DNA from: Candidatus Mcinerneyibacteriota bacterium
Lineage (GTDB): Bacteria; Macinerneyibacteriota; Macinerneyibacteria; Macinerneyibacteriales; DSCS01
Length of the DNA stretch: 41,775 nt
Assembly (NCBI GenBank): GCA_016937175.1
Contig: JAFGWL010000009.1
Span: 1-41,775, forward strand
Direction: 5' to 3'
Shown: positions 425 through 41,019 of the stretch, in pieces
Numbering within the stretch: position 1 is the first letter of the stretch
Layout of the letters: each line of letters starts with the position of its first letter
Position numbers and translations under genes: made by a program
The notes under the pieces: generated by a model
Databases searched by the model: none
What the model was told of the DNA's origin: nothing
Seen by the model: the letters and a program-made list of their open reading frames with translations, nothing else

Positions 425-982
425 ATGGCCTGGATCAAAGTCATCCCCCCTGAAGAGGCTGAAGGAGCCCTGAAGAGGTGTTATGAGGAGATAAGAAAAT
501 CGCGCGGAAAACTGGCGCATATCCACACGATTCACAGCCTGAACCCGGAATCGTTGAAAAACCATATGGACCTTTACATGACGATCATGTTCAGCCGTTC
601 GGGCCTGTCCCGAAAAGAGCGGGAGATGATCGCTGTGGTCGTTTCGGCCTCCAATCAATGCCCCTATTGCATCCGTCACCATGGAGAAGCTCTGAACTAC
701 TACTGGAAAGACAGGGAAAAACTTGAACGTTTTACCGTTGACTATTCATCTGTCCCTTTGAGCGAGAAGCAATCTGCCATGCTGTCCTACACCAGGTCTT
801 TAACCAAGGATCCCTCTTCGGTGGATAAGGGCTCAGTGGGCCAGATGAAAAAGGCCGGCTTCTCTGATGAAGAGGTCCTCAATATCAACCTTATCGTCTC
901 CTATTTCAATTTTGTCAACAGGGTCGCCATGGGTCTTGGCGTCGAGACGCCTGAAGGCGAGGCCTCAGGCTATCAATATTAG
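425..982 (+). CDS. AhpD-like / carboxymuconolactone decarboxylase family, peroxidase-related protein
   Basis: This 185-residue protein has the AhpD-fold active-site signature Cys79-Pro-Tyr-Cys82 followed by His86 (CPYCIRHHG). The protein matches the uncharacterised peroxidase-related branch of the CMD/AhpD family in length and layout. AhpD relatives use the CxxC pair and a proton-relay histidine to reduce peroxides or disulfides, and that role is inferred here. The purine-rich stretch AAAAAAAGGAAAAAA just before the ATG serves as ribosome binding site. It follows the ABC ATPase gene by 28 bp and is closed by a strong hairpin at 991-1016. Given the redox-stress genes further on, a peroxide-related function is plausible but its substrate is unknown. 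Confidence 0.85.
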   Translation: MAWIKVIPPEEAEGALKRCYEEIRKSRGKLAHIHTIHSLNPESLKNHMDLYMTIMFSRSGLSRKEREMIAVVVSASNQCPYCIRHHGEALNYYWKDREKLERFTVDYSSVPLSEKQSAMLSYTRSLTKDPSSVDKGSVGQMKKAGFSDEEVLNINLIVSYFNFVNRVAMGLGVETPEGEASGYQY

Positions 983-990
983 GAAGAAAA

Positions 991-1016
991 GGCTCCCGTC
1001 TTTTAAGACGGGAGCC
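991..1016. terminator. Bidirectional intrinsic terminator between convergent genes
   Basis: A perfect 10-bp stem, GGCTCCCGTC / GACGGGAGCC, has a 6-nt TTTTAA loop. Read on the minus strand the stem is followed directly by TTTTCTT, and it lies just past the stop of the minus-strand barrel gene. On the plus strand a T-run follows after about 8 nt. It probably serves both convergent transcription units. Confidence 0.8.
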
Positions 1017-1028
1017 GAAGATAGTTTT

Positions 1029-1676
1029 TTACAGATTGATGCCTAACCCGATGGTCAGGGTACGCGGGATCGCTTCCATTTCTTCAGGCATCAGCTCCTG
1101 ATCTTCGCTGATGACATTAGAGAAACCGTAGGTATAACGTAATTCACCGAAGAATTTCCCGGTGATCTCATACTTAGCGCCGACGGCAGCACTGAACTGA
1201 AAACGGTTCAGCCATTCGCCGAAATCATACCCCATATATTCGGCGACATCGGGGTCTTCCACATCATAGACCATCTTATAACCGCCACTTAAGGCATAGC
1301 CCAGTACCGGGCCGGCATAGAGGGTCATCTTCTCCATGGGAAGATAGGTGAAGAGGACAGGCAGCTCAAGGACATTACCAAAAATATAGATGTTCTCGGT
1401 ATACCCTGAACCTTCATAAGAATAACGGTCTCCAAGTTCCAAGTAGTTGAGCTCCGCGGTGATCCCCATCTTCTCATTCATCATATGACGGGCCCACACT
1501 CCGCAGTAGAATCCCATCTTCATCTTTGCTTCCAGATCAGAACCTTCTGTAGGGTCCGGATCCACAGCCATGTTCCCCAAGACCATCCCGGCCCTTAATC
1601 CATAATTCAACTCAAGCGCCGAAGCCATGGAGGCAACGGCGATGATCAAAATAAGAGAAATAAGTAATCTTTTCAT
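1029..1676 (-). CDS. Outer-membrane beta-barrel protein, paralog A1
   Basis: The 215-residue protein starts with a Sec signal peptide (MKRLLISLILIIAVASMASA, probable cleavage after residue 20). Alternating amphipathic strands, rich in Gly and aromatic residues, follow to the very C-terminus, which ends in a hydrophobic strand (LTIGLGINL). This is the layout of small 8-strand OmpA/OmpX-like or PF13568-type outer-membrane barrels. It shares the block MEKMTLYAGPVLGYAL and FFGELRYTYGFSN with its four neighbours and is closest to the gene at 2485-3135. It follows paralog B1 by 33 bp with an AAGGAGGG site, so the two form a two-gene operon ending at the hairpin 991-1016. Substrate or ligand is unknown. 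Confidence 0.85.
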   Translation of the reverse strand: MKRLLISLILIIAVASMASALELNYGLRAGMVLGNMAVDPDPTEGSDLEAKMKMGFYCGVWARHMMNEKMGITAELNYLELGDRYSYEGSGYTENIYIFGNVLELPVLFTYLPMEKMTLYAGPVLGYALSGGYKMVYDVEDPDVAEYMGYDFGEWLNRFQFSAAVGAKYEITGKFFGELRYTYGFSNVISEDQELMPEEMEAIPRTLTIGLGINL

Positions 1677-1709
1677 TTATTCCCTCCTTCTTGTTCAGAA
1701 GCTTTCAGC

Positions 1710-2357
1710 CTACAGGTTCACTCCGAACCCGATGGTGAGTGTGCTGGTCTTCCCTTCTGTCTCCGGGGGCAGTTCAGGGTTGTCATCCGAAAACATATTG
1801 GACATCCCGTAAATATAGCGTATCTCGCCGAAATACTTCCCGGCAAACTGATAGCGTCCGCCCACCGCGGCGCTGAACTCAAAGCGGTTGATCCACTCAT
1901 TCATATCAAGGCCTTCATACCAGGAGATTGCGGGATCGTCGATGGATACTTTATACTTGTAGCCCCCTTTGAGGACATAACCCAGGACAGGGCCTGCATA
2001 AAGGGTCATCTTTTCCATGGGGAGAAAGTAGAAGAGAACCGGCATCTCCAGGATTTTTCCGTAAAACATGTAGTTAACATCATCCCCGGACTCCTCATTG
2101 TAATAGCGGTCCCCCTTCTGGATGTAATTGAGTTCTCCCATGAGGCCCATGGTCTCGCTCAAAGGATATTGGACAAAGACACCGCCGTAAAAACCCATCT
2201 TGATCACATCATCAAAATCAGTAGATCCCCACTCTTCAAACTCCGGATCCAACGCCATGTTCCCCAGAGCAACTCCTCCGCGGACACCATAATCCAAAGC
2301 CATACTCATGCCCACGACCATGAAACACGTCAACAAAAGCACAATCATTTTTTTCAT
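1710..2357 (-). CDS. Outer-membrane beta-barrel protein, paralog B1
   Basis: This 215-residue protein has a signal peptide (about residues 1-20, ending GMSMA) followed by the same barrel as its neighbours. Shared blocks are MEKMTLYAGPVLGYVLKGGY and the terminal strand LTIGFGVNL. Its signal peptide and the first 40 residues are almost identical to those of B2 at 3162-3812, which marks these two as recent duplicates. It is the first gene of the B1-A1 operon, with a promoter at 2379-2406 and the ribosome site AAGGAGG placed before the ATG. Likely an outer-membrane structural, adhesive or small-molecule channel protein; no function can be assigned. Confidence 0.85.
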   Translation of the reverse strand: MKKMIVLLLTCFMVVGMSMALDYGVRGGVALGNMALDPEFEEWGSTDFDDVIKMGFYGGVFVQYPLSETMGLMGELNYIQKGDRYYNEESGDDVNYMFYGKILEMPVLFYFLPMEKMTLYAGPVLGYVLKGGYKYKVSIDDPAISWYEGLDMNEWINRFEFSAAVGGRYQFAGKYFGEIRYIYGMSNMFSDDNPELPPETEGKTSTLTIGFGVNL

Positions 2358-2378
2358 AGCAAACCTCCTTATTTTATA

Positions 2379-2406
2379 AGCATATAACCACTTTGAAAAA
2401 TATCAA
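2379..2406 (-). promoter_or_regulatory. Promoter of the B1-A1 barrel operon
   Basis: On the minus strand TTGATA (2401-2406), a 16-bp spacer, then TATGCT (2379-2384). The same architecture (TTGnnA-16-TATrCT) occurs before B2 and before C, in each case just upstream of AAGGAGG and ATG. Confidence 0.65.
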
Positions 2407-2445
2407 GGAAAAATAAAAAACTTTTCTACTGTGATTCTGAAACGA

Positions 2446-2465
2446 CTCCCGCTTCACCGCGGGAG
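2446..2465 (-). terminator. Probable weak terminator after the B2-A2 operon
   Basis: A 7-bp GC-rich stem CTCCCGC / GCGGGAG with a 6-nt loop lies 19 bp after the A2 stop codon. The tail on the minus strand is only moderately T-rich (CGTTTCAG), so termination may be partial. Confidence 0.5.
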
Positions 2466-2484
2466 CCGCAAGACAGATTAAAAA

Positions 2485-3135
2485 TTACAGATTAATCCCC
2501 ATACCGATAGTCAGGGTACGCGGAATCGCTTCAATATTTTCAATGAAAAGCTCCTGGTCCTCGTTTATGATATTGGAGAACCCGTAAGTATAACGCACTT
2601 CTCCAAAGAACGTCTCCGTAATCTCATATTTGATGCCGGCTGCCGCACTGAATTGAAAACGGTTCAGCCATTCACCGAAATCATAACCCATGTGTTCAGT
2701 CACATCGGGATCATCCCAGTCCGCGACCATTTTATAACCACCGCTTAAGGCATAACCCAGCACTGGGCCGGCATAGAGAGTCATCTTCTCCATGGGGAGA
2801 TAAGTAAAGAGAATGGGGAGCTCCAAGACGTTCTGAATCATATAGAAATACTCCGTGTATCCCGATCCTTCGTCAGCATACCGCTTTCCCTGCTCCACAT
2901 AGTTAAGCTCCGCGGTGATCCCCATCTTCTCATTCATCATATGACGGGCCCAGATTCCGCAGTAAAAGCCCATCTTCATCTTCTTTTCCAAACTGGGCTC
3001 CAAGTCAGAAATATCAGGATCTACGGCCATATTGTCAATGGCCAAACCGGTGCGTAGTCCATAATTCAAATCCAACGCTGTCGCCATAGCGACAACAGCG
3101 ACAATTAAAATAAGAGAAATCATTACTTTTTTCAT
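2485..3135 (-). CDS. Outer-membrane beta-barrel protein, paralog A2
   Basis: This 216-residue protein has a signal peptide (MKKVMISLILIVAVVAMATA) and a barrel body that matches A1 along its whole length, including ARHMMNEKMGITAELNY and FGEWLNRFQFSAA. The terminal strand is LTIGMGINL. The first part after the signal peptide and the extracellular-loop positions (for example around residues 35-50 and 85-95) vary most, as expected of exposed loops. It lies 26 bp after B2 and uses the same leader AGGAGGTTTACT-ATG. The B2-A2 pair therefore repeats the B1-A1 pair in order, spacing and orientation. Confidence 0.85.
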   Translation of the reverse strand: MKKVMISLILIVAVVAMATALDLNYGLRTGLAIDNMAVDPDISDLEPSLEKKMKMGFYCGIWARHMMNEKMGITAELNYVEQGKRYADEGSGYTEYFYMIQNVLELPILFTYLPMEKMTLYAGPVLGYALSGGYKMVADWDDPDVTEHMGYDFGEWLNRFQFSAAAGIKYEITETFFGEVRYTYGFSNIINEDQELFIENIEAIPRTLTIGMGINL

Positions 3136-3161
3136 AGTAAACCTCCTTTTACCCAGCCCGC

Positions 3162-3812
3162 TTACAGGTTCACGCCGAACCCGATGGTCAATGTGCTGGT
3201 TTTGCCTTCCATTTCATCGGGTAACATACCATCGGTATCATCCTTAAATATATTTGAGAACCCGTAAATATAGCGGACTTCCCCAAAATATTTCCCTGCA
3301 AACTGATAGCGTCCGCCTGCTGCAACACTCAACTCAAAGCGGTTGATATACTCATTCATGTCCAGACCCTGATATTGACTAACATCGGGATCATCATAAT
3401 TAATCTTGTACTGATAACCCCCTTTGAGCACATAACCCAAGACAGGGCCGGCATACAGGGTCATCTTCTCCATGGGGAGAAAATAGAAAAGAACCGGCAT
3501 CTCCAGGACTTTGCCGTAGAAGATATAATTGATATCATCTCCGGATTCTTCAAAATAATAATTATCACCTTTCTGGATGAAATTGAGTTCTCCCATGATT
3601 CCCATGGTCTCACTCAGAGGATACTGGACAAAGACGCCGCCGTAAAAACCCATCTTGATCTTGTCTTCCGCATCAGGCGGCCCCCACTCGTCAAACTCCG
3701 GGTCCAGGGCCATGTTCCCTAAAGACAAACCACCCCTGACACCGTAATCCAACGCCATACTCATACCCACAACCATGAAACACGTCAACAAAAGCACAAC
3801 CGTTTTTTTCAT
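3162..3812 (-). CDS. Outer-membrane beta-barrel protein, paralog B2
   Basis: The 216-residue protein starts with MKKTVVLLLTCFMVVGMSMA, a signal peptide nearly identical to that of B1. I chose the ATG at 3812 because AAGGAGG precedes it at ideal spacing. A longer in-frame start at 3860 would lie inside the promoter (-35 at 3855-3860, -10 at 3833-3838). The body carries the family blocks MEKMTLYAGPVLGYVLKGGY and YFGEVRYIYGFSN and ends LTIGFGVNL. It is the first gene of the B2-A2 operon. Outer-membrane location is inferred from signal peptide and strand pattern; function is unknown. Confidence 0.85.
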   Translation of the reverse strand: MKKTVVLLLTCFMVVGMSMALDYGVRGGLSLGNMALDPEFDEWGPPDAEDKIKMGFYGGVFVQYPLSETMGIMGELNFIQKGDNYYFEESGDDINYIFYGKVLEMPVLFYFLPMEKMTLYAGPVLGYVLKGGYQYKINYDDPDVSQYQGLDMNEYINRFELSVAAGGRYQFAGKYFGEVRYIYGFSNIFKDDTDGMLPDEMEGKTSTLTIGFGVNL

Positions 3813-3832
3813 AGTAAACCTCCTTAATGTAA

Positions 3833-3860
3833 AGTATATCACCGAGTTATCTGTTTGCAA
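3833..3860 (-). promoter_or_regulatory. Promoter of the B2-A2 barrel operon
   Basis: Minus strand: TTGCAA (3855-3860), 16-bp spacer, TATACT (3833-3838), then a short leader with AAGGAGG. It rules out the upstream start codon of B2. Confidence 0.7.
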
Positions 3861-3885
3861 GGAACTTGTAAAATATTACTAAAAA

Positions 3886-3906
3886 CCCCCGGAAGAGACC
3901 CGGGGG
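3886..3906 (-). terminator. Intrinsic terminator of barrel gene C
   Basis: Stem CCCCCGG / CCGGGGG with a 7-nt loop, followed on the minus strand by TTTTTAGTAAT, 28 bp past the stop of gene C. Confidence 0.85.
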
Positions 3907-3934
3907 CTGAAAACGTGTTTTCTCTGAGGAGATC

Positions 3935-4582
3935 TTACAGCTGGACACCGATCCCAAAGGAGAAGGAGCGTGTCTTGCCCTCGAGATCATCAGGAAACAG
4001 ACCGTCCTCTTTGAACATATTACTGAAGCCCAGGGTATACCGGAGTTCTCCGAAGTAGCGGCCGGCAAACTGATACCGGGCCCCGATGGCAGCGCTCAGT
4101 TCGAAGCGGTTCAGGAATTCCCCCATGTCATATCCCATATACTGGCTGATCTCCGGATCCGGAATGTCAACGACCTGGACATATCCCCCTTTCAGAAGAT
4201 AACCGAAGACCGGGCCTGCATAAAGATGCATCTTCTCCATGGGCACATAGTAGAAGAGGAGGGGCAGTTCAATGAAATTTCCGTAGAAGTTGAACCAGAT
4301 ATCATCTGTTGTTTCTGTTATCTTATTCTTGTCGCCCTTCTGGACATAGTTGAGCTCAGCCATAAGGCCCATGTTTTCTCCCAGGGGATACTGTATCCAG
4401 AGTCCTGCATAGAACTTGACCGCGATCTCATCGTCGGTGGGCGGCCCCCACTCGTCCAGTTCAGGGTCCAACGACATACTGGCCAGAGACAGCCCTGTCC
4501 GCACGCCGTAGTTCATGTCCGCACTAAAGGCAACACCAACAGCCATCACAGTCACTACAACAAGCAGCACCAGTCGTTTCAT
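3935..4582 (-). CDS. Outer-membrane beta-barrel protein, paralog C
   Basis: The fifth member of the array: 215 residues with a signal peptide (MKRLVLLVVVTVMAVGVAFS, then ADMNYGVRTG). It has the family barrel with MEKMHLYAGPVFGYLLKGGY and YFGELRYTLGFSNMF, and the terminal strand FSFGIGVQL. It resembles the B type in the region DPELDEWGPP but is more divergent than the A and B pairs are from their duplicates. It forms its own transcription unit, with a promoter at 4609-4636, ribosome site AAAGGAGG and the terminator at 3886-3906. It may be the oldest copy. Confidence 0.85.
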   Translation of the reverse strand: MKRLVLLVVVTVMAVGVAFSADMNYGVRTGLSLASMSLDPELDEWGPPTDDEIAVKFYAGLWIQYPLGENMGLMAELNYVQKGDKNKITETTDDIWFNFYGNFIELPLLFYYVPMEKMHLYAGPVFGYLLKGGYVQVVDIPDPEISQYMGYDMGEFLNRFELSAAIGARYQFAGRYFGELRYTLGFSNMFKEDGLFPDDLEGKTRSFSFGIGVQL

Positions 4583-33647: not shown

Positions 33648-34907
33648 TTATGAATTCATTCTATCCAGGAACTCTTGATTACTCTTTGTCTTGGACATCT
33701 TATCGATTAAAAACTCCACCCTCTCCACGACGCCCATGGGGGCCAGGATCTTACGCAGGATCCAGATACGGTTGAGGGTCTTTTGGTCTATGAGAAGCTC
33801 TTCTTTACGGGTCCCGCTCTTTTCAATATCCAGGGCCGGGAAGACACGTTTGTCAACAAGACGGCGGTCCAGGACCAGTTCCATGTTTCCAGTCCCCTTA
33901 AACTCTTCGAAGATGACATCATCCATCCGGCTTCCCGTATCGATGAGAGCTGTCGCAATGATAGTCAGGCTTCCACCCTCTTCGATATTACGGGCTGATC
34001 CAAAAAAGCGTTTTGGTTTATGGAGAGCATTGGAATCTACCCCACCGGAGAGAATCTTCCCGCTGTGGGGGACCACTGTGTTGTTGGCCCGAGCCAGGCG
34101 CGTGATACTGTCCAGAAGGATCACCACATCTTTACCGTACTCCACGAGCCTTTTGGCTTTCTGTATCACCATATCGGCTACCTGGACATGTTTTTCAGCC
34201 TGTTCGTCAAAAGTAGAGGAGATGACCTCTCCCTTGACGGTCCTCTTCATATCGGTGACCTCTTCCGGGCGCTCATCGATGAGCAATACGATAAGGTGCA
34301 CTTCAGGATGGTTTGTCGTAATGGAATTGGCGATCTGCTGAAGCAGGATAGTCTTTCCTGTACGGGGTGGGGCCACGATGAGGCCGCGCTGCCCTTTTCC
34401 CAGGGGGACGAGAAGATCCATAATACGCGTGGACATGTTTTTGGGATCGATCTCCAGTCCGATCTTTTCTGTGGGATAGTAGGGAGTCAGTGTGTCAAAG
34501 AATTTCCGGCTGACAGAAGTTTCCGGGACATCATCATTGACCTTCTGAAGATCCGAGAGGGCAAAATACTTTTCATTGTCCCTGGGGGCCCTGATGGTCC
34601 CTTCCAATGTATCTCCCGTTTTCAGACGCCAGCGCCGGATAAGGTTGGGAGAGACGTAGATATCTTCAGGCGAAGGCAGGTAGTTATTCTCTTCCGAGCG
34701 TAAAAATCCGTAACCGTCGCTGAGGACTTCCAGTACGCCCAGGCCGGAGACCTCTTCATTCTTATCGATAACTTTTTCGACAATACGGAAGAGAACCTCG
34801 TGCCGCCGAAAACCCAAGAGACTTTCTTCATCGATCCCTCTGTCCAGATCAGAGAGATCCTTCAGAAGGTCGTTAATATCCTTCTTTTTCAAATCCTCCA
34901 GTAACAT
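33648..34907 (-). CDS. rho: Transcription termination factor Rho
   Basis: This 419-residue hexameric RNA helicase has an N-terminal helical and OB-fold RNA-binding part with [31 protein letters not shown]. The ATPase core has the P-loop APPRTGKT (179-186), [13 protein letters not shown], the Q-loop [19 protein letters not shown], and [12 protein letters not shown]. It ends untranslated transcripts. The start is ATG 34907 with GAGGAGG in front; a GTG one codon earlier is less likely. It follows the RuvX-CoaE gene by 12 bp and is followed by rpmE. Confidence 0.97.
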
Positions 34908-34919
34908 CACACCTCCTCG

Positions 34920-35945
34920 TTACTTCCCTTTTAACATGATTTCACTGTGGTATGAAATGACCTCATTCAAGAACTTGTCTACTTCTTCCTTGTAGGAGTC
35001 CCAGCCGTGAGATGTATCAACGGCACAATCGAACAGATTTTCAACGTCATGCGGGGGAGCCTGCTGTTTCAAAATGTGGCTAATTTCTCTGTCAGAACGG
35101 CGATCCCGCTCCTTAACCCGTGCTATTATCACATCAGCAGTGCTCTTTGTCAAGAGAGAAAAATCATAGAGATAATAGAGCCGGTTTTCTGCTAAAAGAG
35201 GGACCTCCAAAAAAATGATCTCTCCCTTCCGCATTTCCATCTCCTCCAGAAGCGCTTTCCGGATCAGAGGGTGAAGGACCCTGTTCAATCTGTTCAGCAT
35301 CACCGGTTGTGTAAAGACGACTTCCCCCAGTTTTTTTCTGTCAAGCTCTCCTGCCGGGGTAAAAAACTCCCTGCCGAACAACTGCTCGATAAGCCGGGCC
35401 CCCTCACCTCCCGGGGCTGTCACTCTCCGGGAGACAGTATCGGCAGACAAGAGGGATCCGCCGCACTTTTCCGCCATACGGCCTGATACATAACTCTTCC
35501 CGCTCCCCAGATTTCCCGTGACGGCCACAATGGTGTTTTTTCGGCTGCGCCTTTCCTCCATGAAACGCTCCAGGATAAGGGAAGCTGCGATCTTGTCAAC
35601 TGCTTCTCTTTTTTGTTTAAACCGGATCCCCTCTACAGAGAGACGCTCATAACTTTCATGAGTAGTGAAGGTCTCATCTACCCAGGAGACGGGAAGCATG
35701 AGCCGGGGTTTGACCTTTTCAAAGAAGCGAAAACCTCCCCATACCCTGTTCACTTCCCCGGTTGAAAGAGAGAGAGGATAACCCATGACGATCCTTTCAG
35801 CCTTATAGTCCCGTACGATCTTTTCAAGACGGTTCCATGGGGAATGCGTGTCAATGACGTCCAGAGGAGAAGCCATGGTCCAGGAAGAATCACTTATAGC
35901 GACCCCTGTCCTTTGTTTCCCCCAATCTAAACCCATTAATATCAT
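34920..35945 (-). CDS. ruvX/coaE: RuvX-CoaE fusion: Holliday junction resolvase-like plus dephospho-CoA kinase
   Basis: One unbroken frame of 341 residues joins two normally separate proteins. Residues 1-133 are a RuvX/YqgF RNase H-like nuclease: GLDWGKQRTGVAISD (Asp7), VMGYPLSLSTGEV, WVDETFTTHES (Glu91) and AVDKIAASLIL (Asp117), so the catalytic acidic set is present. Residues 137-341 are dephospho-CoA kinase: P-loop VTGNLGSGKS (142-151), Asp169 in SADTVSRRV, LHPLIRKAL and FLEVPLLAE (246-253), then VKERDRRSD in the lid region. CoaE makes the last step of CoA; RuvX processes rRNA ends or junctions. A short basic linker (ERRSRKN) joins them. No sign of a frameshift. Confidence 0.93.
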   Translation of the reverse strand: MILMGLDWGKQRTGVAISDSSWTMASPLDVIDTHSPWNRLEKIVRDYKAERIVMGYPLSLSTGEVNRVWGGFRFFEKVKPRLMLPVSWVDETFTTHESYERLSVEGIRFKQKREAVDKIAASLILERFMEERRSRKNTIVAVTGNLGSGKSYVSGRMAEKCGGSLLSADTVSRRVTAPGGEGARLIEQLFGREFFTPAGELDRKKLGEVVFTQPVMLNRLNRVLHPLIRKALLEEMEMRKGEIIFLEVPLLAENRLYYLYDFSLLTKSTADVIIARVKERDRRSDREISHILKQQAPPHDVENLFDCAVDTSHGWDSYKEEVDKFLNEVISYHSEIMLKGK

Positions 35946-35996: not shown

Positions 35997-37583
35997 TCAG
36001 TGCATCTTCGGAACGACATTGTTGACAAATATTTCAACAAGATTTTTATCAAACTGTGTCCCGGAATCAAGACGCAGGCGCCGGACAGCTTCCTCTACAG
36101 GGAGTGCCGCCCGGTAGGGACGATCAGACGTCATGGCATCAAAAGCATCAGCGATGGTCATGATCCGGACCTCCTCGGGGATCTCGCTCCCCTTGGTCCC
36201 GTCAGGATATCCCCGCCCGTCCATCCGTTCGTGGTGGTTACGTATGATGGCACGGCAGGATTCCAGGAACTTGATATCTTTTATGATCTCTTCTCCGATA
36301 ACGGGATGGCGCTTCATCTGGTCGAATTCGATATCTGTCAACTTCCCTGGTTTAGTCAGAATATGAACAGGGACACCGATCTTGCCTATATCGTGGAGTA
36401 TCCCGGCCAGTTCAAGGTTTCTGAGCTTTTCCTCGCTGTATCCCATCTCCCGGGCCAATTCCAGGGCAAAGATCGTGACCCTCTCCGAATGGCCTCGGGT
36501 ATAGACATCTTTTGCTTCGATGGCCTTGGAGAGGGCCCTGACCGTCTGGAGGTAATAGCTCGCCAGCTCTTCATAGATAATGGTGTTTTCGATGTCGATG
36601 GCCGCCTGTTCCGAAAAGATCTTCAAGACTTCCAGTTCCTCTTCATTAAAGCTTTTCCCGTCTTCTTTATTTGTCACGTTGAGTACTCCGATCACGCCTT
36701 TTTTGATGGTGACCAGGGGGATAGAGATAAAGGAGGACGCCGAATATTTATTCCGCTCTCCCTGCAGCTCCACCGGCAGGCTTTCTTCGCTCGTGTCTTT
36801 CACAAGAAGGGGTTTATTGTGCTGAGCCACCCAACCCGCGACTCCTTCCCCTACCCGGACACGCTCACCAATATATCCGCTTGTGTCGCCGATCCCGTCG
36901 ATCACTGTCAAATACTTCTTTTCATCATCCAGCAGCATTACTGAGACCGTGGTGGCTGAGAGGACTTCCTGGACCACTTCAAGAATATAATGGATGGTCT
37001 CGTTAAAGTCCAGAGAGGAGTTGATGGTCTTCATCACGTCGTTGATAAAGCGCAATTCCTGATACTTTTTCTGAAGGGTCTTATCACTGGCCAGTACTTT
37101 CTGTTCCAGCATCCTCTGCTGTTTTGTGAGCTTCCGGTTCGCCTTTTTCAACTCTTCCAGGAGATGTTCGTTTTCCAGGACGACACGCCTCTTCTCCACA
37201 GACCGTTCCAGGATCATAGTTATGGCCCTGGCATCATAGGGTTTCGGGAGAAAATCATAAGCCCCGGCCCGAAGAACCGAGACCAGGATATCCGAGTCGA
37301 TATAGCCTGTCATGATAATGGTGATGATATCGGGACGCTCTTCAGACAGTGTCTTGACCAGATTCAGGCCACTCAACCGGGGCATCTTGATATCCGAGAT
37401 CACAATATCTATATCCGGGGTAGAACGGACGACTTCCAGAGCTTCCAGCCCGTCACTGGCACCGATACAGTGATATCCCAACTCACGCAGTATATCCTGC
37501 ATGACCTCTAAAAGAGGAAGCTCATCGTCAACGACCAGGACTTTCATCTTTTTTTTATCATCCAAAGATGGATCTCCCTTCAC
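35997..37583 (-). CDS. Response regulator with REC, GAF and HD-GYP domains
   Basis: This protein of about 528 residues has three domains. A receiver domain lies at about 13-130 (acid pocket Asp19/Asp20, phosphoacceptor Asp64, Thr92, Lys114 in LPKPYD). A coiled coil (about 130-180) joins it to a GAF domain (about 185-340). An HD-GYP phosphodiesterase (about 345-528) has GHSERVT, LHDIGKIGVP (His397, Asp398) and HHERMDGRGYP (450-460). It should degrade cyclic-di-GMP when phosphorylated and ligand-bound. No partner kinase is beside it. The start is uncertain: GTG 37583 directly follows the eno stop, but a TTG six codons in has a better AGGGAG site. Confidence 0.94.
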   Translation of the reverse strand: MKGDPSLDDKKKMKVLVVDDELPLLEVMQDILRELGYHCIGASDGLEALEVVRSTPDIDIVISDIKMPRLSGLNLVKTLSEERPDIITIIMTGYIDSDILVSVLRAGAYDFLPKPYDARAITMILERSVEKRRVVLENEHLLEELKKANRKLTKQQRMLEQKVLASDKTLQKKYQELRFINDVMKTINSSLDFNETIHYILEVVQEVLSATTVSVMLLDDEKKYLTVIDGIGDTSGYIGERVRVGEGVAGWVAQHNKPLLVKDTSEESLPVELQGERNKYSASSFISIPLVTIKKGVIGVLNVTNKEDGKSFNEEELEVLKIFSEQAAIDIENTIIYEELASYYLQTVRALSKAIEAKDVYTRGHSERVTIFALELAREMGYSEEKLRNLELAGILHDIGKIGVPVHILTKPGKLTDIEFDQMKRHPVIGEEIIKDIKFLESCRAIIRNHHERMDGRGYPDGTKGSEIPEEVRIMTIADAFDAMTSDRPYRAALPVEEAVRRLRLDSGTQFDKNLVEIFVNNVVPKMH

Positions 37584-39967: not shown

Positions 39968-40453
39968 TTAACGGGACACAGGGTATTTTTCGCGCAGCCT
40001 CTCTTCCACATAAGGTGTCACGAAGGTCTTGAGATCCGCCCCCAGAGAGGCCAGTTCTCTCACGACACTGGCATTCAGATAGATATAATCGATGGAAGGC
40101 ATCAAAAAAAGCGTCTCAAAATCTTCGTCGAGCTTCCTGTTTGTAAGGGCTATCTGCATCTCATACTCAAAGTCTGAGATGGCGCGCATCCCCCGTATGA
40201 TGACTTCTAAATTCTTCTCTTTGACAAACTTGACCAGGAGCCCGTCGAAGGGCTCGACGGTGATCCGCCCATCTCCGTCATAAGTCTTCCGGATCATGTC
40301 CACCCGTTCTTCCACCGTAAAGAGAGGATGCTTTTTTTCATTCCGGGCCACAGCAATGATCAGATGATCAAAGATCTTAAGACTTCTCTCGATAATGTCG
40401 ATATGCCCCCTTGTGATCGGATCAAATGTTCCCGGATATAAGCCCTTTTTCAT
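39968..40453 (-). CDS. coaD: Phosphopantetheine adenylyltransferase
   Basis: This 161-residue nucleotidyltransferase has MKKGLYPGTFDPITRGHIDII (with the H-x-G-H-like ATP motif TRGH), FDGLLVKFV and IRGMRAISDFEYEMQIALTNRKL, and the second ATP motif YIYLNASVVRELASLG. It makes dephospho-CoA from phosphopantetheine; the next step is carried out by the CoaE part of the fusion at 34920-35945. The start is ATG 40453, with AAGGAGGAG in front; the longer frame runs into rsmD. It follows rsmD by 11 bp, a common pair. Confidence 0.97.
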   Translation of the reverse strand: MKKGLYPGTFDPITRGHIDIIERSLKIFDHLIIAVARNEKKHPLFTVEERVDMIRKTYDGDGRITVEPFDGLLVKFVKEKNLEVIIRGMRAISDFEYEMQIALTNRKLDEDFETLFLMPSIDYIYLNASVVRELASLGADLKTFVTPYVEERLREKYPVSR

Positions 40454-40464
40454 TCTGCTCCTCC

Positions 40465-41019
40465 TTAATCCTTTTTTAGAAAATAGAGACAGCTGTCGGC
40501 GATCTTTCGTTCCCTCAGCAAGCTCCACCCTTCCGGAAGGCGCAGCTCATGCTTTTTTTCCGTTTCACAAAATAGAATCCCCTGGGACTTCAGCAAGCGG
40601 GCTATGTCGCTCTCTGCCAGGATCCGGTTCAGATAGTCTTTCCTGAAAGGGGGATCCATCAGGATCACATCAAAGGTGTTTTGTCGGCTTGCCAACAGGG
40701 TGATACCGTGAAAACAATCATTTCGTAAGATTGTCACACGGTCTTTTACCCGAAGGAGAGAAGCATTCTGTTCCACAAGCTTCAGGCTCCCGGGATGCTC
40801 TTCAATAAAGGTGACAGCATGAGCACCCCGGCTCAGGGCCTCGAATCCAAGATTACCCGTCCCCGCGAAAATGTCCAGAATATGGGCTTCTTCCAGAGAA
40901 CAATAATTTTCCAGGATCGCAAAAAGGGTCTCCTTTACACGGCCCAAAGTGGGGCGCAAATTACCCAACGGGGCTGAAACGATCTTTCTTCCTTTAAGTG
41001 TCCCTGCGATTATTCTCAT
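40465..41019 (-). CDS. rsmD: 16S rRNA (guanine966-N2)-methyltransferase
   Basis: This 184-residue enzyme matches RsmD: MRIIAGTLKGRKIVSAP, RPTLGRVKETLFAILENY, the SAM motif LDIFAGTGNLGFEALSRGA and the catalytic LMDPPFRKDYL (NPPY-type DPPF). It methylates G966 of 16S rRNA in the small subunit. The ATG lies 3 nt after the T-run of the upstream terminator and lacks a ribosome site, so initiation may be leaderless or depend on read-through. Forms an operon with coaD. Confidence 0.95.
   Translation of the reverse strand: MRIIAGTLKGRKIVSAPLGNLRPTLGRVKETLFAILENYCSLEEAHILDIFAGTGNLGFEALSRGAHAVTFIEEHPGSLKLVEQNASLLRVKDRVTILRNDCFHGITLLASRQNTFDVILMDPPFRKDYLNRILAESDIARLLKSQGILFCETEKKHELRLPEGWSLLRERKIADSCLYFLKKD

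Follow-up and report, generated by a model that had tools for sequence, protein, structure and literature searches.

The gene at positions 35945–34920 on the minus strand of the window (the whole stretch of 41,775 nucleotides that was analyzed) is a genuine ruvX-coaE fusion, encoding 341 amino acid residues from an ATG start to a TAA stop, with both enzyme domains complete. It is most likely a once-only fusion in which both activities have been kept and two housekeeping enzymes are produced per message. Judging from sequence and conservation, a promoter belonging to rho, the next gene, most likely lies within the CoaE half, a feature that the original prediction had missed. We consider it quite probable that the two observations belong to one arrangement, a bifunctional housekeeping protein with independent halves and a rho promoter nested in the CoaE frame.

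Fused gene and its two domains

As originally predicted, RuvX and CoaE share one unbroken reading frame, which lies on the minus strand. The RuvX/YqgF domain (35556..35945, minus strand; residues 1–130) is matched by Pfam PF03652 with 106 bits against a cut-off of 29.2. The dephospho-CoA kinase (CoaE) domain (34983..35531, minus strand; residues 139–321) is matched over residues 139–310 by PF01121 with 117.4 bits against a cut-off of 27. The NCBIfam equivalog models TIGR00250 (RuvX, 65.2 bits; cut-off 43.25) and TIGR00152 (CoaE, 120.7 bits; cut-off 65.55) also match the fused protein. No stop codon lies between the domains, and the linker is only about six residues long. Besides the fused gene, no second copy of RuvX or CoaE was found in the genome searched, which is 98.7% complete.

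Three genomes were compared within the phylum: that of the window (G000), one of the same genus (G001), and one of the same order but another family (G002). The full-length fusion is present in all three, with 66% identity in G001 and 40% identity in G002, the latter being A+T-rich in this stretch. An artefact, either a lost stop codon or frameshift in the assembly or a pair of genes that relatives keep separate, is thereby ruled out, since the fused frame is unbroken in three independent assemblies. A comparison of G000 with G001 shows purifying selection on each half, with dN well below dS (RuvX, 0.32 against 2.66; CoaE codons 137–264, 0.41 against 1.83).

The gene order in G001 is unchanged: eno, response regulator/HD-GYP, fusion, rho, rpmE, prfA, prmC, and hslU. 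In G002, the HD-GYP gene is followed by two small genes, and these by the fusion and rho. The upstream neighbor, a response regulator-GAF-HD-GYP protein (35997..37583, minus strand), is kept in both. CoaD catalyzes the preceding step of CoA synthesis, and coaD (PF01467 match; 39968–40528, minus strand) shares the strand of the fusion and lies only 4 kb upstream of it, likewise in G001. Elsewhere in the window (1029–4582, minus strand), a tandem array of five paralogs, each about 215 residues long and with an apparent signal peptide, has alternating sequence types and resembles outer-membrane beta-barrel proteins.

The catalytic residues named in the original prediction (Asp7, Glu91, and Asp117; the P-loop at 144–151 and Asp169) were all confirmed by alignment. 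In the RuvX half, the three acidic residues align with carboxylates that do not vary among other YqgF/RuvX proteins, including 1vhx, 1nu0, and 7ess; they are the Asp of the first strand, the Glu after strand 5, and the Asp of the last helix. The CoaE half keeps the P-loop GNLGSGKS (144–151), Asp169, whose counterpart is invariant in 31 other CoaEs, the HP motif (His225 and Pro226), Arg276, Arg280, and Gln295. The catalytic residues of both halves are invariant in the three fused proteins. Two departures in the CoaE half should be noted. The Asn residue of the Asn-x-Gly motif, which is frequent but not invariant (27 of the 31 other CoaEs), is replaced by Thr311 in all three fused proteins, and the usual Gly at P-loop position 145 is missing. 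Because of these two departures, the sequence makes kinase activity likely but not sure.

An AlphaFold2 (AF2) model of the CoaE half, built with CoaE relatives and covering this half only, has pLDDT values mostly above 90. The best 30 Foldseek matches to the model consist entirely of dephospho-CoA kinases and CoA synthases, and CoaE crystal structures, including those of E. coli and Burkholderia, are matched at E 4e-17. The model supports a CoaE fold in this half. A single-sequence model of the whole fusion gave a pLDDT of 34. Of the domain pair for which structure prediction was originally proposed, the CoaE half is the one with a supported fold.

Rho neighborhood and predicted nested promoter

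The fused gene lies directly before rho (33648..34910, minus strand; PF07497 and PF00006; 95% identical in G001), as had been pointed out, but this placement is not special to the fusion. The TAA codon of the fusion ends at 34920, and rho starts at GTG 34910 or ATG 34907, leaving a gap of 9 nt. The ATG at 34907 is more likely to be the start than the listed GTG, because it is better spaced from the putative ribosome-binding site AGGAGG (34912..34917, minus strand; read from the sequence and kept in G001 and G002) and agrees with the rho start in G002. In unrelated bacteria without the fusion, coaE is found directly before rho (G014, G028, G033, and G067) or within about 1.7 kb of it (G013, G045, and G050), and the ruvX match in these genomes, wherever listed, is elsewhere than coaE-rho. 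Since coaE adjoins rho in such fusion-free bacteria, the place of the fusion before rho comes from coaE. This suggests that coaE-rho is an old, recurring neighborhood and that ruvX is the newcomer. In the ancestor of the phylum, ruvX would have come in frame before a coaE gene that already preceded rho, and the two genes would have merged.

The putative promoter consists of a −35 hexamer TTGACA (35148..35153, minus strand; codons 265–266 of the fused gene) and an extended −10 element TGT GATAAT (35125..35133, minus strand; codons 271–274; the same in G001 and G002). With 11 of 12 consensus bases, a 17-nt spacer, and the TG, it lies in frame within the CoaE half, at a distance of about 240 nt from rho, towards which it is directed. 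It occupies the same codons in all three genomes and is the best promoter match of the stretch in G001 and G002. The case for a promoter rests on position, strength, and conservation, the strength being scored against the sigma-70 consensus, which may not be the preference of this host. The exact pattern occurs once per genome of about 2 Mb in all three, always at this site; the reversed pattern, taken as a control, has 0, 0, and 1 occurrences. At a loose threshold, 8 matches were observed against 3.8 expected, and consensus matches commonly arise by chance. Given the amino acids and the codon usage, the chance of both hexamers is 8e-4, 2.5e-3, and 2.8e-3 in the three genomes. If active, this extended −10, sigma-70-type promoter within the CoaE frame would supply at least part of the rho transcripts.

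With the start placed 7 nt after the −10 element, near 35118, a leader of about 208 nt (34911..35118, minus strand) is predicted inside the CoaE frame, and would extend for some 200 nt across the last part of coaE to reach rho. The promoter, the leader, the ribosome site, and the first ~16 rho codons together form a block of about 330 nt (34860..35195, minus strand) that is conserved at the nucleotide level in G001. Constraint and recent recombination both fit the high identity of this block. In our judgment, recent recombination between the two lineages, as opposed to a constrained leader RNA, has somewhat less than an even chance. The values of dN and dS fall together in codons 265–341, to 0.08 and 0.21 (RuvX half, 0.32 and 2.66), and the edges of the block are sharp. 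The predicted leader folds no better than its shuffles (z 0.47, 0.14, and 0.94) and has no clear stretch of C over G of the rut-like kind (41 C and 55 G of 208), Rfam gave no leader match near the gathering score, and G002 keeps the leader only at the promoter and the ribosome site. Against recombination, the block extends from just upstream of the promoter to just past the rho start, the very edges that a functional leader would have. It is also the most conserved 300 nt of the 11.8 kb compared between G000 and G001, and 23/23 four-fold sites are identical in codons 265–341, compared with 26/71 for codons 1–244 and about 40% for the neighboring genes. A short out-of-frame leader peptide, noticed by eye in G000 and G001, was rejected because it lacks a good ribosome site and has no counterpart in G002. 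The promoter claim is independent of the leader question, because G002 supports the promoter separately.

The promoter-like sequence could instead be a chance match held in place by protein constraint, since the three fused proteins all share the surrounding residues (LTK...DVII) and nearly share stretches close by, such as YYLYD. The codons make this highly unlikely. Outside this site, synonymous positions are saturated between G000 and G002, yet the two genomes agree in the codon for 9 of 9 identical residues in positions 261–274, compared with 46 of 118 elsewhere (Fisher P 3.6e-4). Among these codons are ones of low usage in G000, ATA (which encodes 11% of Ile residues) and TTG (which encodes 9% of Leu residues), and the exact motif is, as noted, unique in each genome. 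The residues also leave the pattern of the CoaE family exactly at the −35 and −10 elements. Residue 266 is Thr in the fusion and Val in 26 of 31 other CoaEs; residue 273 is Ile in the fusion and Gln or Arg in 26 of 31. At these positions, Val codons cannot give the ACA of the −35 element, nor can Gln codons give the ATA of the −10 element. The comparison suggests that the need for TTGACA and GATAAT set the kinase codons and these two residues. Such shaping of the protein by a DNA signal is favored because the 9-nt gap is too short for a promoter between the genes. The point on the two residues is suggestive only, as further CoaE positions in the fused protein also deviate from the family.

Range of the fusion and relation of its halves

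The search for the domain pair found the fusion in the three genomes of the phylum and, among the matches listed, no fused match in the 383 genomes outside it, mostly of separate families (386 searched), though fusions with long linkers could escape such a search. This confirms the pair within the phylum and limits its known range to it among the matches listed. Searches of two further phyla (40 and 399 genomes) with the fused profile gave CoaE-only matches among those listed, and two smaller phyla (9 and 24 genomes) gave no match at the strict threshold, which carries little weight. RuvX is absent from each of 20 CoaE loci, mostly picked for long open frames, and no ruvX match lies within 15 kb of the coaE match in 38 outside genomes. 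A scan of named genomes gave one distant RuvX only, and a viral scan gave none. Matches across both halves in a phage collection (H2, H4, and H6) were rejected as fusions, being alignments that cross a stop codon into polA or another neighbor. Two sequences deposited as 'Bacteriophage sp.' (L038 and L040; MT836467.1 and MT835512.1) carry an apparent end of a bacterial DNA polymerase I followed by coaE, and may for this reason be bacterial contigs. The pair is apparently undescribed: in line with the original prediction, whose author knew of no described fusion, no description of RuvX and CoaE as a fusion was found in the open-licence literature.

Other CoaE fusions were observed in the course of the search. 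In an unrelated genome (L030, G025:C1:234500-238500, ORF 1521–3425, minus strand), a 635-residue frame has a PF00849 pseudouridine synthase before CoaE, another fusion of CoaE with an RNA-acting enzyme. In a second locus (L031, G040:C49:5000-9500, ORF 817–2679, minus strand), CoaE is followed by a class I/II aminotransferase in a 621-residue frame.

The N-terminal half would act as a YqgF/RuvX nuclease on the pre-16S rRNA end or on branched nucleic acid, and the C-terminal half would phosphorylate dephospho-CoA. The halves probably act independently, the fusion giving one-to-one production from one message. One of them might be a mere folding or scaffold domain, for example with RuvX solubilizing CoaE, or with CoaE inactive. 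M. tuberculosis CoaE does need its attached UPF0157 domain for folding (PMC2765170), and the CoaE half here deviates at several family residues. This explanation is nevertheless improbable, as the catalytic residues of neither half vary among the three proteins and no further copy of either enzyme was found in the genome. CoaE is required by nearly every free-living bacterium.

Functional coupling, in which binding of CoA, dephospho-CoA, or ATP tunes the nuclease half, or the reverse, would link rRNA maturation or DNA repair to the CoA supply. The linker of about six residues brings the last RuvX helix, which extends to ~134, near the first kinase strand at 138, and the pairing has been retained though the proteins have diverged to 40% identity. 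No residue or interface points to coupling, and elsewhere CoaE joins unrelated partners (the pseudouridine synthase and the aminotransferase above, and UPF0157 in mycobacteria). In the mycobacterial case, tests excluded regulation by the partner and showed that it acts in folding (PMC2765170). We regard coupling as very unlikely. Of the two proposals made originally, simple co-expression of the enzymes fits these observations, while a regulatory link between CoA and nucleic acid processing has no supporting evidence. Very unlikely, too, is a combined scheme in which the halves affect each other's activity and, with the nested rho promoter and leader, fused-gene and rho transcription or Rho termination mutually set their levels.

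Comparison with known systems

RuvX/YqgF, the putative pre-16S rRNA nuclease or Holliday junction resolvase, resembles the N-terminal half in the whole domain and the three carboxylates. Elsewhere, it is a free protein of about 140 residues, whereas here it runs on into the kinase. The RNase activity of D. radiodurans YqgF depends on D22, E106, and D122, its putative catalytic residues (PMC9601230). The C-terminal half resembles CoaE (PF01121 and TIGR00152) in the domain, the P-loop, Asp169, the HP motif, the lid arginines, Gln295, and the modeled fold. It differs from the usual CoaE in the N-terminal RuvX, in Thr at 311, in T266 and I273, and in the putative promoter within its code.

The best-studied bacterial CoaE fusion is the mycobacterial CoaE-UPF0157 protein (PRK03333/NF002879), for which a folding role but no regulatory role was found (PMC2765170). 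It resembles the present protein as a two-domain protein containing CoaE, but its partner is C-terminal and is not an enzyme of known function, unlike the N-terminal RuvX. Its model scores 102 of 215 bits on the fused protein, far under the cut-off. Animal CoA synthase (PPAT-DPCK, that is, CoaD-CoaE) also has CoaE as its C-terminal half, and the mouse structure 2f6r was among those matched. Its partner performs the preceding step of the same pathway, whereas here the partner is a nuclease and coaD is a separate gene. The RuvX-CoaE pair appears to mark a whole small phylum, and offers a simple way to ask whether essential enzymes with unrelated roles can share one polypeptide and yet not be functionally coupled.

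According to the citation of Ingham 1999 in PMC5540618, rho is autogenously regulated in B. subtilis. The composition and fold of the predicted leader gave no evidence of Rho autoregulation here.

A promoter inside an upstream gene that serves the next gene is an element of an ordinary kind. The one predicted here differs from known internal promoters in lying inside coaE at the same codons across the phylum. In other coaE-rho genomes with gaps between the genes (G033, G045, and G050), the best promoter matches are after or at the end of coaE. The nested rho promoter would be a clear example from nature of a DNA signal that seems to have dictated codons and residues in an essential enzyme. Annotation that treats coaE as coding only would overlook it.
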